64,000 bases of DNA from Desulfosoma sp. (lineage in GTDB: Bacteria; Desulfobacterota; Syntrophobacteria; Syntrophobacterales; DSM-9756), in NCBI GenBank assembly GCA_037481875.1, contig JBBFKY010000004.1, positions 186,001-250,000 on the forward strand, read 5' to 3'. The position numbers and the translations under genes are program-made. Below are positions 22,382-31,787 of this stretch, one piece after another. The notes beneath the pieces are model-generated. The model was not told where the DNA came from and made no database searches. It saw nothing but the letters and a program-made list of their open reading frames with translations. How positions within the stretch are numbered: position 1 is the first letter of the stretch; every line of letters begins with the position of its first letter.

Positions 22382-23323
22382 CTACACATCCAACCCCAGG
22401 GCCGCTCGTGTCGCCGGCCCTACAATGCCGTCCACCTTCAAGGTACCCTTGGCCTTTTGAAACGCAAGCACAGCCCTATGCGTTTCCGGCCCAAAGACGC
22501 CGTCCACACTCACAGGATACCCGGCTCGCCCTAGAGCTTCCTGAAGCCGTCGCACATCGTCTCCTCGTAAAGCCGGTGTCTGCAAACGAAGCAGCCGCCC
22601 CGATTCCGGTTCTTCGGCGGAAACACGCACGGGAGGGTCCAGTAAAACGGAGGCATCGATCAGCACACCACGCACCATGAACGGAAGTTCCAACCCCCAT
22701 TTGTTCTGATCGATCAGGCTGCCGAAGCTTTCCATACGGTACACGGTTTTTCGAAGCAGGGTGTTGCTGTGATGTTCAAGCCAGTCTCGGCGGCAACGCA
22801 CGTAGCCTTGAATCCATGCTTTTTCTCCCACCTGGGAGGGTTTTCCGATCTGTTGCGTGGTGAGATCCCGAAGACGCTGCCAGGATCCATGCACGCGGCT
22901 GTCGTAGACCACGGAAACACCCAGAGCCGTCGAAATTTCCATGGATTTCGCTGAGGTAAGGCTCGGTTCCCAGTAGATTCGGTCAAAAAATCGATCCTGG
23001 CATTCACGCATGACGGGATCCTGCCCGGCATCACGGAGAAGTCCTTTGAGGCGTTCGTCGTAATTGAGAGAAGAGTCCCGTTTGGCCAGGCGATCCAAAT
23101 AGATGGAAAGTTCCGGGCCGAAAGCGCTGGAGAAAGAGGAGCAGTAGTCCCGCACCAAAAGGTACAGGTTTCCACTGGCCAGAGTGGTTTGGGATCGGCC
23201 GTAGGTGAGTTCTCCGGGATCCATAGGATGATAGGTGACTTTGCCGTAATCCCCCTGAGGACGGCCTGTTTCAAAAACATTCACGATGGCCTGCGCGGCC
23301 TTTTTTTGAAGGTCACTGATCAT
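22382..23323 (-). CDS. GH46-type chitosanase with C-terminal peptidoglycan-binding domain
   Basis: A 313-aa protein. Residues 1-215 match glycoside hydrolase family 46: NVFETGRPQGDYGKVTY with the candidate acid Glu of FETG, GELTYGRSQTTLASGNL, and the VVYDSRVHGSWQRLRD motif. These enzymes cleave chitosan. Residues 245-313 are a PG_binding_1 domain (LRGDDVRRLQEALGRAGYPV, DGVFGPETHRAVLAFQ). No signal peptide is evident from the ATG at 23323, which has AAGGAG upstream; the longer frame to 23398 does not supply one either. A GH46 enzyme is unexpected in a sulfate reducer and may be acquired. Confidence 0.82.
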   Translation of the reverse strand: MISDLQKKAAQAIVNVFETGRPQGDYGKVTYHPMDPGELTYGRSQTTLASGNLYLLVRDYCSSFSSAFGPELSIYLDRLAKRDSSLNYDERLKGLLRDAGQDPVMRECQDRFFDRIYWEPSLTSAKSMEISTALGVSVVYDSRVHGSWQRLRDLTTQQIGKPSQVGEKAWIQGYVRCRRDWLEHHSNTLLRKTVYRMESFGSLIDQNKWGLELPFMVRGVLIDASVLLDPPVRVSAEEPESGRLLRLQTPALRGDDVRRLQEALGRAGYPVSVDGVFGPETHRAVLAFQKAKGTLKVDGIVGPATRAALGLDV

Positions 23324-23416
23324 GGAAGGCTCCTTAAGGTTTGAAGGCCCTGCCGAGTCTTCACTCAAGAGGGAAAAGCCTGAAATTGCCCTACGCATAA
23401 TCCGGCGGATGCCGCC

Positions 23417-27099: not shown

Positions 27100-27975
27100 T
27101 TAATTCTTTCGTTTTTTGCGAAGCCAGGCCACGCTTCCGGCAAGTCCCGTTCCAAAGAGGAAAAGCGTGGCTGGTTCTGGGATTATGTTCGGTGGCCCTC
27201 CCCCGTTCGGATCCCAGGTCACATCATGGGAGAATGGATTGTTTTCAAGCGTGGATCGAATCATTGATTGACCCTGTAAATCTGTGACAATGGCCAGCAA
27301 ATCGAAATGTGCCCAAGATATGTATGGTGAATCCAGCCCAGACAGTGTGAGAGTCTTGATAGAACCATTATCGTTCCCTGTGCTTTCGTCGGAAAAATCA
27401 GGAACTAGAGTGGATTTCGTGAAATTTCCAATGTCGAAGAATAAGTAGGCATTGGCACTCGGAACTGGAGCATGATTGCGCACATCATTGTATTGACTGG
27501 GCCACCACGATAGGGTATTAAGGGATGTGTCGGTATAGTAAAAGGCTCCGTATGCGCCTTGGGCGTCGTCATCTCGATCAAGCTTTAGATTGTTGTAGGC
27601 GAAGGTAGCGTTATCGGTGTAAATCGAAACTAAAAGAATAGCTCCAGCGTCTTTAAAGGATGCATCAAATCCAAAGCTATATTCGGCATTATCATCATAC
27701 CAATCCTTCCCTGTTCCGGACGAACCTGTGTATTGACCTCCAATCAACAAAGTTTGATTGTTGACACCATAGCTGGCTGCGGCATAGATGATATATCCAG
27801 ATGTACGAGCAGTCTCCTCTTCCGGTGGGTTTGACCAGTTATTATAGTCTGCGTACAATCCAGTATCGCCCGGGCCGGCAGGGGCGCCCAACTGCAGGAT
27901 AGGCACTGCCCAGCCCGTTGTGGGCATCATCGCCAGCGCCACCAAGAGCAAAGCCATCATAAGCCGTTTTTGCAT
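27100..27975 (-). CDS. PEP-CTERM sorting domain surface protein
   Basis: A 291-aa exported protein. Residues 1-23 are a signal peptide (ALLLVALAMMPTTGWA). The mature part is beta-rich, aromatic and Asn/Asp-rich with no recognised catalytic domain. The C-terminus is a PEP-CTERM tripartite signal: IPEPATLFLFGTGLAG, hydrophobic helix, then RKKRKN. Such proteins are processed by exosortase in Gram-negative exopolysaccharide producers; no exosortase gene is in this window. GGAGAG precedes the ATG. About 265 bp upstream is a candidate sigma-54 promoter with a box cluster further up. GC content is visibly lower than in neighbouring genes. Confidence 0.9.
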   Translation of the reverse strand: MQKRLMMALLLVALAMMPTTGWAVPILQLGAPAGPGDTGLYADYNNWSNPPEEETARTSGYIIYAAASYGVNNQTLLIGGQYTGSSGTGKDWYDDNAEYSFGFDASFKDAGAILLVSIYTDNATFAYNNLKLDRDDDAQGAYGAFYYTDTSLNTLSWWPSQYNDVRNHAPVPSANAYLFFDIGNFTKSTLVPDFSDESTGNDNGSIKTLTLSGLDSPYISWAHFDLLAIVTDLQGQSMIRSTLENNPFSHDVTWDPNGGGPPNIIPEPATLFLFGTGLAGSVAWLRKKRKN

Positions 27976-28615: not shown

Positions 28616-30421
28616 TTATTTGATCACACGGATCGAAGTTTGCCCCTGGTTTCCTGCGGTGTCGGTGGCGACGGCCGTGATGGTATGCGTGCCCGAGGCG
28701 GCCGAAGAGGTGTTCCAGACATAGTCGAGTGACGAGGCGGTGGTGGAGGCTTTGAGCACGCCGTCGATGTAACATTTGATACCGGCGACTTTCACGTTAT
28801 CTTTCGCCGCGATGGAAATGGTGACCTTTTTGGAAACCTTTGCGCCGTCGGTGGGGCTTGTGATGACTACTTGAGGAGGCTCGGCGTCCACAGGATCCGG
28901 AATGTTATCCACGGTGATTGTCACACCTGAGGATGTTCCAACGTTTCCGGCCTTATCCCACGCCTTGGCCGTCAAGGTAAGGGAGCCATCGGCAAATCCA
29001 AGCGTATCCACGGTAAACCCATAGGGAGCTTCCGTAGCTTCGCCGACCAATTGTCCATTGGCGTAGAGTTCGACGCGCTCGACACCCACGTTATCCGAGG
29101 CGGAGACATCCACCGCCACATTGCCGGAAACCACGGCCCCTGCTTTGGGCGCTGTGATGGTCACTTTGGGCGGTTCGGTATCCGGGGTTTGTGTTTGTGA
29201 CGCCATAAGGGCTGCTGCGTGGGCGTCCACGCGACCGTACCCGTAGTAAATATCCCAGCCGTCGGATCCCAGATCCACTGCTGTTTGCTTCAAAATGTTT
29301 TCCACTTGATTCGGTGTGAATGCGGGATTGAGGGAAAAGACAAGAGCCGCTACGCCTGCTGCTGCAGGACTGGAAAAAGAAGTTCCGGAAACACTGGCAT
29401 AGCCGCCGCCTCGAGCTGTGGTGAGAATGCCAGCTCCTGGAGCCGCCAGATCCACATAGTTGCCGTAACTGGACCAACTGGCCTTGACATCCGAGCTGGT
29501 GGTAGCGGAAACAGTCACGATAGCAGGGTTTTCCGAGATATTTTCCAAGGCTCCCGAGTTTCCGGCCGACGCAAAAACCAGCCCGCCCTTATTTCGAAAA
29601 TAGTTGGCGGCGCTGGTGACAGTAGAGCTTCCGGTGACTCCGTAGCTGATGTTGGCAACCCGTGCCCCGTGATCCGCCGCCCAGGTGAGTCCGCTGGCGA
29701 TGGTGCTGAAATAAGCATATCCGTCCGGCTGGCTGATCCTTACAGGCATGATCTTGGCGTTCCAAGCAAGGCTTGCCACTCCGAGGGCATTGTTGGCTGC
29801 AGCCCCGATGACCCCAGCCACGTAGGTGCCATGCCCATGAACATCGGAAGTGTCGGCATTGTTGTCATACATGTTCCATCCGGGAACAAGTTTTCCGGCA
29901 AGATCCGGATGGGTGCCGTCCACACCGGTGTCCAGAACCGCCGCAATGATGCCGTCTCCCAAGGTGTAGTCCCAGGCTGCGGGAGCCTTCATCAGGGGCA
30001 GATGCCATTGGCTGCTATACTTGGGGTCGTTGGGAACAGTGTCGTCGGGCGGAATCAGAGCATCCGGTTCGGCAAAGGCGATCTTGGGATGCTTGGAAAG
30101 GGCTCGAGCCACCGCTTCTTCCGCCTGGGGAGGCACCGAAACCACATGGACTCGAATCTTTTCCAAAACCCCAACACGACGAGCTCCATGTTCAAAAAGC
30201 ACATCGTCCAGTTCGGTGTCATCGACCCCGACCCGGGCTTGGACCAGAATGCGTCCTTGAGCCCATTGGGGTTTTTCGGCCCAGGCTATAGAACCTTCCG
30301 CAAGCAGGGAAAAACCGAATCCGGCAAGAAGCAGAAGCATGCAGAGGTAAAAGGCGTTCAAGGCGAAAGCTGAGGCTCGAAACCTAAAAAGAGATCTGGA
30401 AAACCGTTTCAAACCGCTCAT
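28616..30421 (-). CDS. Secreted subtilisin-family serine protease with two Ig-like domains
   Basis: A 601-aa protein. A signal peptide or anchor lies near residues 20-48 and an inhibitor-I9-like propeptide near 55-115. The peptidase S8 domain carries Asp in VLDTGVDGTHPDL, His in HGHGTYVAGVIG, the oxyanion Asn in FASAGNSG and Ser in GTSFSSPAAAG, so the triad is complete. After residue 415 come two Big_9/Bacterial Ig-like repeats, each starting EPP-VTI-P and sharing DNVGVERVELY / DNVKVAGIKCY-type strands. It starts at 30421 behind AGGAGGTG. The upstream leader is a class I cyclic-di-GMP riboswitch whose platform can mask this ribosome site. Confidence 0.93.
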   Translation of the reverse strand: MSGLKRFSRSLFRFRASAFALNAFYLCMLLLLAGFGFSLLAEGSIAWAEKPQWAQGRILVQARVGVDDTELDDVLFEHGARRVGVLEKIRVHVVSVPPQAEEAVARALSKHPKIAFAEPDALIPPDDTVPNDPKYSSQWHLPLMKAPAAWDYTLGDGIIAAVLDTGVDGTHPDLAGKLVPGWNMYDNNADTSDVHGHGTYVAGVIGAAANNALGVASLAWNAKIMPVRISQPDGYAYFSTIASGLTWAADHGARVANISYGVTGSSTVTSAANYFRNKGGLVFASAGNSGALENISENPAIVTVSATTSSDVKASWSSYGNYVDLAAPGAGILTTARGGGYASVSGTSFSSPAAAGVAALVFSLNPAFTPNQVENILKQTAVDLGSDGWDIYYGYGRVDAHAAALMASQTQTPDTEPPKVTITAPKAGAVVSGNVAVDVSASDNVGVERVELYANGQLVGEATEAPYGFTVDTLGFADGSLTLTAKAWDKAGNVGTSSGVTITVDNIPDPVDAEPPQVVITSPTDGAKVSKKVTISIAAKDNVKVAGIKCYIDGVLKASTTASSLDYVWNTSSAASGTHTITAVATDTAGNQGQTSIRVIK

Positions 30422-30598
30422 GATACACCTCCTGAGATTTTGGAATGTTTGGGCAGGAAACGGGAAGGCCATCTTCCGAGGCAGGAAGGAGGTGTTCCCG
30501 TTTCTTCGGCAACCCGGCCATCCCGACGGATCGGGATCCGTGGCTTTGCGTCCCCGCCTTACAACGGGTTTGCCCTTTCGGAAACGTGGGTCTCTTCG
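30422..30598 (-). promoter_or_regulatory. Cyclic-di-GMP-I (GEMM-I) riboswitch with translational expression platform
   Basis: Reading the minus strand from about 30598, the leader contains the GEMM-I core: AGGGCAAACC, then GGGGACGCAAAGCC, a P3 hairpin ACGGAT/ATCCGT, and GGCCGGGTTGCCGAAG. P1 pairs CGTTTC (30586-30581) with GAAACG (30504-30499). Downstream, ACACCTCC (30495-30488) is perfectly complementary to the Shine-Dalgarno GGAGGTGT (30432-30425). A competing 10-bp stem GAAACGGGAA / TTCCCGTTTC (30504-30495 with 30466-30457) uses the P1 3' strand and encloses the anti-SD. Ligand binding should favour P1, free the anti-SD and block translation: an OFF switch (inference). Confidence 0.88.
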
Positions 30599-30731: not shown

Positions 30732-31787
30732 TCAAGATCCAACATTTTTTCCGGTGCCGTAATAGTCGAGGTACCAGGCCACAAATTTTCGAATCCCTTC
30801 TTGAATGGACGTGGAGGGCCGAAAGCCGAAATCGCGGCTGAGATCGTCAATGTCGGCCGCGGTGGCGGGAACATCGCCGGGTTGCATGGGCAAAAATTCT
30901 TTGCGGGCTTCCTTGCCCAGGCATTCTTCCAGCACACGAATAAATTCCATGAGTTCTACCGGATGATTGTTTCCGATGTTGTATATGCGGTACGGAGCGG
31001 CACTGGTTCCGGGATCCGGGGCATCTCCGGTCCAGGTGGGATCCGGTGCGGGGGCTTTTCGCATCACACGCACCACCCCTTCGATGATGTCATCAATGTA
31101 GGTAAAATCGCGGCGCATTTTTCCGTAATTAAATACCTGGATGGGTTCATCGTTCAAAATAGCCCGAGTAAAAAGAAAAAGAGCCATATCGGGCCTCCCC
31201 CAAGGACCGTAGACCGTAAAGAATCGAAGGCCCGTACAGGGCAGACCGTAAAGATGCGCATAGGTATGGGCCATGAGTTCATTGGCTTTCTTGGTGGCGG
31301 CATAAAGGGAGACAGGGTGATCCACGTTATGATGAACGGAAAAGGGCATGCGGGTGTTGGCGCCATATACAGAGCTGGAAGAGGCAAAAACCACGTGCGC
31401 CCATCGGTGCCGACGGCCTCCTTCCAAAATATTCATAAACCCCATGAGGTTACTGTCCACATAGGCGTAGGGGTTCACGAGGGAATAACGCACTCCGGCT
31501 TGAGCCGCCAGATGCACCACAACCCGAAACGGATAACGTTCAAAAACGGCTTCCATGGCGGATCGGTCTGCCACATCCAAGCGATGAAACGTAAAACCCG
31601 GGTGAGCTTCCAGGATTTTCAGACGATCCCATTTGATCCGCACATCGTAGTAAGCGTTTACACTGTCCACACCGACAACGGAATAGCCGTCCAAAAGGAG
31701 CCGTTGAGCGAGATGGAAACCGATAAAGCCGGCGGCGCCGGTCACCAACACGGGCGCGGAAGGGTCCAGCAAGCTTGATTCGAGCAT
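30732..31787 (-). CDS. NAD-dependent nucleotide-sugar epimerase (UDP-glucuronate 4-epimerase type)
   Basis: A 351-aa extended short-chain dehydrogenase. The N-terminal Rossmann motif is VTGAAGFIGFHLA, the catalytic Tyr-Lys pair is in SLYAATKKANELMAH, and SSSSVYGAN supplies the Ser. The TVYGPWGRPDMALFLFTRAI block and NYGKMRRDFTYIDDI are typical of UDP-glucuronate 4-epimerases of the CapI/LspL group, which make UDP-galacturonate for surface polysaccharide. Other epimerases of the group cannot be excluded. It is the last of four genes in a likely operon, six bases after a universal stress protein gene. Confidence 0.88.
   Translation of the reverse strand: MLESSLLDPSAPVLVTGAAGFIGFHLAQRLLLDGYSVVGVDSVNAYYDVRIKWDRLKILEAHPGFTFHRLDVADRSAMEAVFERYPFRVVVHLAAQAGVRYSLVNPYAYVDSNLMGFMNILEGGRRHRWAHVVFASSSSVYGANTRMPFSVHHNVDHPVSLYAATKKANELMAHTYAHLYGLPCTGLRFFTVYGPWGRPDMALFLFTRAILNDEPIQVFNYGKMRRDFTYIDDIIEGVVRVMRKAPAPDPTWTGDAPDPGTSAAPYRIYNIGNNHPVELMEFIRVLEECLGKEARKEFLPMQPGDVPATAADIDDLSRDFGFRPSTSIQEGIRKFVAWYLDYYGTGKNVGS

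Follow-up and report, generated by a model that had tools for sequence, protein, structure and literature searches.

The window, which is the whole stretch of 64,000 nucleotides analysed here, carries on its minus strand a class I c-di-GMP riboswitch aptamer in a leader flanked by an epimerase gene (30732-31787) and the start codon of a secreted subtilase gene. The gene and the aptamer are located as follows, with matching models in brackets; the remaining features were read directly from the letters.

28616..30421, minus strand: secreted S8 subtilase of 601 aa (PF00082, PF22148, PF17957)
30421, minus strand: subtilase start codon, ATG
30504..30583, minus strand: class I c-di-GMP riboswitch aptamer, comprising the top of P1, P2 with a GUAA tetraloop, and P3 (RF01051 and RF03167)
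30576-30567, minus strand: core motif AGGGCAAACC
30555-30542, minus strand: core motif GGGGACGCAAAGCC
30519-30504, minus strand: core motif GGCCGGGTTGCCGAAG

The subtilase begins with an apparent signal peptide, read off the sequence; Pfam matches add a Fervidolysin-type prodomain, one S8 domain and two Big_7 domains. PF00082 scored 175 bits, over its cut-off (E 2.3e-51), and the D/H/S motif blocks are visible in the translation. An in-frame upstream ATG at 30472 was rejected as the start because it sits within the anti-P1 hairpin of the leader, whereas the ATG at 30421 has a strong Shine-Dalgarno sequence (SD) at good spacing. The nearest named relative is a Desulfosoma MAG (76% identity); since this genus is in Syntrophobacterales, the host was placed in that order as Desulfosoma-like. 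A sequence-only reading of this DNA had proposed both a secreted subtilase and a host in Desulfobacterota, and both proposals were borne out. The next gene after the subtilase (27100-27975, minus strand) encodes a PEP-CTERM exported protein (PF07589). Further away in the window are a predicted family 46 glycosyl hydrolase of the chitosanase type with a peptidoglycan-binding domain (22382-23398, minus strand) and an ARPP-1 domain protein (PF20208; 14281-15471, plus strand).

Whole-genome covariance-model search gave one single RF01051 match in the 3.4-Mb genome, at minus-strand 30583-30504, scoring 76 bits against a cut-off of 35 (E 4.9e-15 for the genome). P1, P2 with its GNRA-type loop (GUAA), P3 and the conserved core blocks are all present. 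The GEMM-I core motifs that the sequence-only reading had placed on the minus strand are thus real, and the RF01051 search, which it had named as a check, was significant. Compared with GEMM-I riboswitches of RF01051, the architecture, core motifs and contact bases as read are the same, and the aptamer is without differences. The genome also encodes six GGDEF domains. A search for class II c-di-GMP riboswitches gave no match in this genome, and none in the control genomes either, so that the class may still be present here; Rfam matches to CC2171 and sul1 scored below cut-off and were rejected as chance.

Around and downstream of the aptamer core, the leader contains the following elements on the minus strand, which allow two alternative sets of pairings.

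30581..30586, minus strand: P1 5′ strand, CGUUUC (CGTTTC), kept as GUUUC/GUUUU in Desulfobacterota orthologs
30495..30504, minus strand: GAAACGGGAA, P1 3′ strand (GAAACG) and 5′ arm of the anti-P1 hairpin, compared with shuffles
30457..30466, minus strand: UUCCCGUUUC (also TTCCCGTTTC), 3′ arm of the anti-P1 hairpin, with compensatory changes in other leaders
30487..30495, minus strand: anti-SD ACACCUCCU, a 9-bp perfect SD complement located in the internal loop of that hairpin
30495-30488, minus strand: 8-base anti-SD stretch ACACCTCC
30425..30433, minus strand: SD AGGAGGUGU
30432-30425, minus strand: 8-base SD stretch GGAGGTGT

Competition of P1 (CGTTTC/GAAACG) with a 10-bp stem had been claimed before; both helices are in place, and the anti-P1 helix is stronger than expected from shuffled leaders (p = 0.001). 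The exact anti-SD complement claimed together with them turned out to be longer, at 9 bp (ACACCTCCT/AGGAGGTGT; p = 0.0145 against shuffled leaders). Its position needs correction: rather than lying inside the stem, the anti-SD shares with it only the final base of the 5′ arm, and its remainder is in the internal loop. A simple scan for intrinsic terminators found no terminator-like site in the window leader. An anti-SD trapped by a P1-competing hairpin gives the platform a translational appearance, in contrast to the Cd1 and pilM switches, which are of the termination type.

We suggest that, at high c-di-GMP, this class I c-di-GMP riboswitch most likely represses the secreted subtilase at the translational level. 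At low ligand, the P1 3′ strand would be captured by the 10-bp anti-P1 hairpin (GAAACGGGAA/UUCCCGUUUC), which would trap the anti-SD and leave the ribosome free to bind GGAGG. When ligand is present, P1 would be stabilised, the anti-P1 hairpin would lose its 5′ arm, and the freed ACACCUCCU would pair with the SD AGGAGGUGU and block initiation. The physiological logic would probably be an exoprotease made on leaving the sessile state.

The platform was compared among six Desulfobacterota leaders, those of the window (G000), G002, G005, G015, G368 and G385. In these leaders the 3′ strand of P1 (GUUUC/GAAAC) also forms part of a longer anti-P1 hairpin, the first seven pairs of which are all standard in six of six. 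Column 6 of this hairpin is G-C, A-U or G-U and column 4 is A-U or G-U, and farther out in the hairpin G005 has, in addition, an A-U pair replaced by G-C. Each loop contains a complement of the leader's own SD, from 6 to 9 bp long; that of G015 is 6 bp (p 0.22 against shuffles). G368 and G385, which are sister genomes, show covariation: GGAGGA in the SD becomes GGAGGG, and UCCUUC in the anti-SD becomes CCCUUC. Own pairings were also stronger than swapped ones for both anti-SD:SD (p 0.028) and anti-P1 (p 0.025), in a small set of six related leaders of which two are nearly identical in the tested arms; these values are uncorrected for kinship.

The anti-SD layout is not confined to the protease: other c-di-GMP-I genes of the order have similar anti-SD leaders, and the anti-SD platform may be general within it. 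Most other short-leader c-di-GMP-I aptamers of the order (L018, L025, L028, L104 and others) precede exported proteins with FN3-like motifs, and 17 of 26 such leaders have an anti-SD complement at p<=0.05. The simple P1/SD energy measure gave mixed signs for these leaders, and an ON versus OFF contrast with them was dropped, with no direction claimed. Five further aptamers (L008, L011, L027, L073 and L086) are, in several genomes of the order, upstream of a conserved protein starting like MIRELSKNEVSALHYELVMKDI, without signal peptide, which looks HDOD-like.

Energetics were measured as the rise in SD-opening cost when the P1 strand was made unavailable, with 300 shuffled leaders as control. 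The cost rose by 4.0 kcal/mol in G002 (0/300 shuffles as large), by 1.6 kcal/mol in the window leader (9/300) and in G005 (13/300), and by 0.03 kcal/mol in G015 (48/300). The computed extra SD occlusion on P1 formation in the window leader was modest, varying from 1.6 to 2.8 kcal/mol with the amount of coding sequence included. Moreover, when the P1 strand of the window leader is sequestered, a residual GGAA/UUCC hairpin persists around the anti-SD in the minimum-energy fold, with the SD paired elsewhere; hence, nearest-neighbour energies do not give a clean two-state picture for this leader. The computed energies would thus back translational OFF control plainly for G002 and to a modest degree for G000 and G005, but not for G015. 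The translational OFF platform proposed by the sequence-only reading is supported as far as its pairings are kept with compensation in six leaders including that of the window, in which no terminator-like site was found, but the energies of the window leader are modest; the predicted OFF model is supported by conservation more than by energies.

The closest full-length orthologs of the subtilase, in G002 (76%), G005 (67%) and G015 (45%), each have a class I aptamer directly upstream. In G001, a genome of the same genus, no aptamer and no subtilase match passed the thresholds applied. Extending the comparison to 395 genomes of the phylum brought in G368 and G385 (40-41%), each with an upstream aptamer, and subtilase matches in G291, G349 and G075 without an upstream aptamer reaching gathering score. 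Counting one match per genome, a class I aptamer is directly upstream in six of the nine closest Desulfobacterota matches, against a rough per-gene background of 5e-4 that does not account for relatedness; several of the compared assemblies are MAGs.

This association recurs across two phyla, which the first reading had not seen. Outside Desulfobacterota, orthologs in Duganella (two), Massilia, Thauera and Nitrosomonas have the aptamer upstream, and those in Methylomonas, gammaproteobacterial MAGs and a Bdellovibrionota MAG have none. Among 145 genomes of the betaproteobacterial Duganella family, 18 of 25 strong subtilase matches have their own upstream aptamer. In four betaproteobacterial genomes (Thauera, Nitrosomonas, Duganella and Massilia polaris) the class I aptamers found total seven, every one of them upstream of such a subtilase. 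One Duganella locus (G434:C15:98638-104720; L132, L145, L152) has three tandem subtilases, the first two each with its own riboswitch and the third with none at gathering score. In a midpoint-rooted tree of 46 subtilases, all riboswitch-bearing members fall within a single group of 39 (26 with riboswitch) and occur on both sides of its first split; 6-7 gains or losses are required to explain this distribution. Either an old association followed by losses or repeated gain may account for it. In this subtilase lineage of Desulfobacterota and Pseudomonadota, the c-di-GMP-I riboswitch is a recurrent control element.

The Oxalobacteraceae loci (Duganella, Massilia), together with those of Thauera and Nitrosomonas, belong to the same subtilase clade and have the c-di-GMP-I aptamer directly upstream, but no anti-P1 hairpin was seen in the Oxalobacteraceae leaders, and no expression platform could be made out in those of Thauera and Nitrosomonas. 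A downstream strand of type GGCAGUCCUGUU can pair there with either the CAGGACUGCC strand of the aptamer or an SD of type AACAGGAC. Examples are GUCCUGUUG/CAACAGGAC in L142 and GUUCUGUUUAA/UUAAACAGAAC in L135, in which both sides have changed together. Over 18 leaders, own anti-SD:SD pairs were unbeaten in 20,000 permutations (0/20,000, uncorrected for kinship), and the pairing with the aptamer strand was stronger than in shuffled leaders in 12 of 18 (p below 0.05). Ligand would lock the aptamer strand, and the anti-SD so freed would occlude the SD; hence, this platform, which is unrelated to that of Desulfobacterota, also predicts ligand OFF. The prospects are about even that one secreted subtilase lineage spanning Desulfobacterota and Pseudomonadota is a dedicated c-di-GMP-I target, directly controlled by c-di-GMP through at least two unrelated translational OFF platforms, and that it represents a conserved protease for biofilm exit or matrix processing.

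A true c-di-GMP riboswitch may act otherwise than by SD occlusion, either as an ON switch or mainly at the transcript level, through Rho-dependent termination or mRNA decay. Homologous c-di-GMP-I aptamers are known to function as ON or OFF switches (PMC9262584), and the modest energetics of SD occlusion in the window would fit such control. However, the leader is without a terminator-like site, relatives keep the anti-SD:SD pairing with compensation, and OFF is the direction predicted by both of two unrelated platforms. We consider this alternative unlikely, and prefer translational repression by c-di-GMP.

It is still more improbable that the aptamer senses another cyclic dinucleotide, either 3′,3′-cGAMP as in the GEMM-Ib of Geobacter or an altered ligand, which the better E-value for the c-di-GMP-I-GGC variant (RF03167) might suggest. 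RF03167, which is in the same clan as RF01051, matched the same locus with 68 bits against a gathering cut-off of 59 (E 6e-14, Infernal) and was retained over RF01051 in clan competition; alignment of the window aptamer to this model is full-length with no broken pair marked. However, the RF01051 score of 76 bits is higher, and the GACGC-R-AAGC block has the canonical A in the window (GACGCA; GACGCAAAGCC) where the RF03167 consensus has G (GACGCG). We take this G for A, from our reading of the consensus, to be the defining change of the variant, and the variant was rejected despite its score over cut-off. On Vc2 numbering, which we assume to hold for the window aptamer, the contact bases G20, A47 and C92 were read from GGG, GACGCA and the C of UUGCC; a c-di-GMP aptamer, as opposed to one for cGAMP, should have G at position 20 and A at position 47. 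Geobacter does use cGAMP-binding GEMM-I riboswitches (PMC8835794), and cGAMP preference has been linked to G20A (PMC6274999), but the window has G at the base read as position 20 (AGGGCAAACC), where a cGAMP riboswitch would have A, and this class was rejected. Given the canonical A in the GACGC-R-AAGC block and the G at the position distinguishing c-di-GMP from cGAMP, the window element was treated as an ordinary c-di-GMP-I aptamer, with c-di-GMP presumably its ligand. That the aptamer is real and the platform pairings arose by chance, with the switch inert or decayed, is hardly credible: anti-SD complements are easily found in CU-rich leaders and G015 fails single-leader anti-SD tests, but both helices are kept in six leaders with compensatory changes, and the aptamer remains upstream of the subtilase in divergent genomes.

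Class I c-di-GMP OFF riboswitches are established in Clostridioides difficile, including one on the secreted metalloprotease ZmpI (PMC6200980). The parallel with PPEP-1/Zmp1 drawn by the sequence-only reading is therefore real as far as Cdi-1-12 on zmpI and the window element share a class I switch on a secreted protease. However, control of zmpI was measured on transcripts, in a Gram-positive host, and its product is an unrelated zinc metalloprotease with known surface-protein substrates, whereas control of the window subtilase is predicted to be translational; ligand OFF is measured for the former and predicted for the latter. Among open-access papers, a search for literature linking c-di-GMP riboswitches to subtilases gave no relevant match, which does not prove that none exists. 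The riboswitch class itself is an established one, and the recurrent subtilase link looks undescribed within the papers searched.

Control of surface proteolysis by c-di-GMP is known from LapG/LapD and from ZmpI of C. difficile. If true, a lineage of subtilases that recurs in two phyla under a c-di-GMP riboswitch of its own would be a new and easily testable link from this messenger to biofilm exit. Moreover, convergent riboswitch evolution would be cleanly illustrated by two unrelated platforms predicted to act in the same direction. The genera of several hosts (Massilia, Duganella) are culturable, and hence the prediction is testable outside Desulfobacterota.
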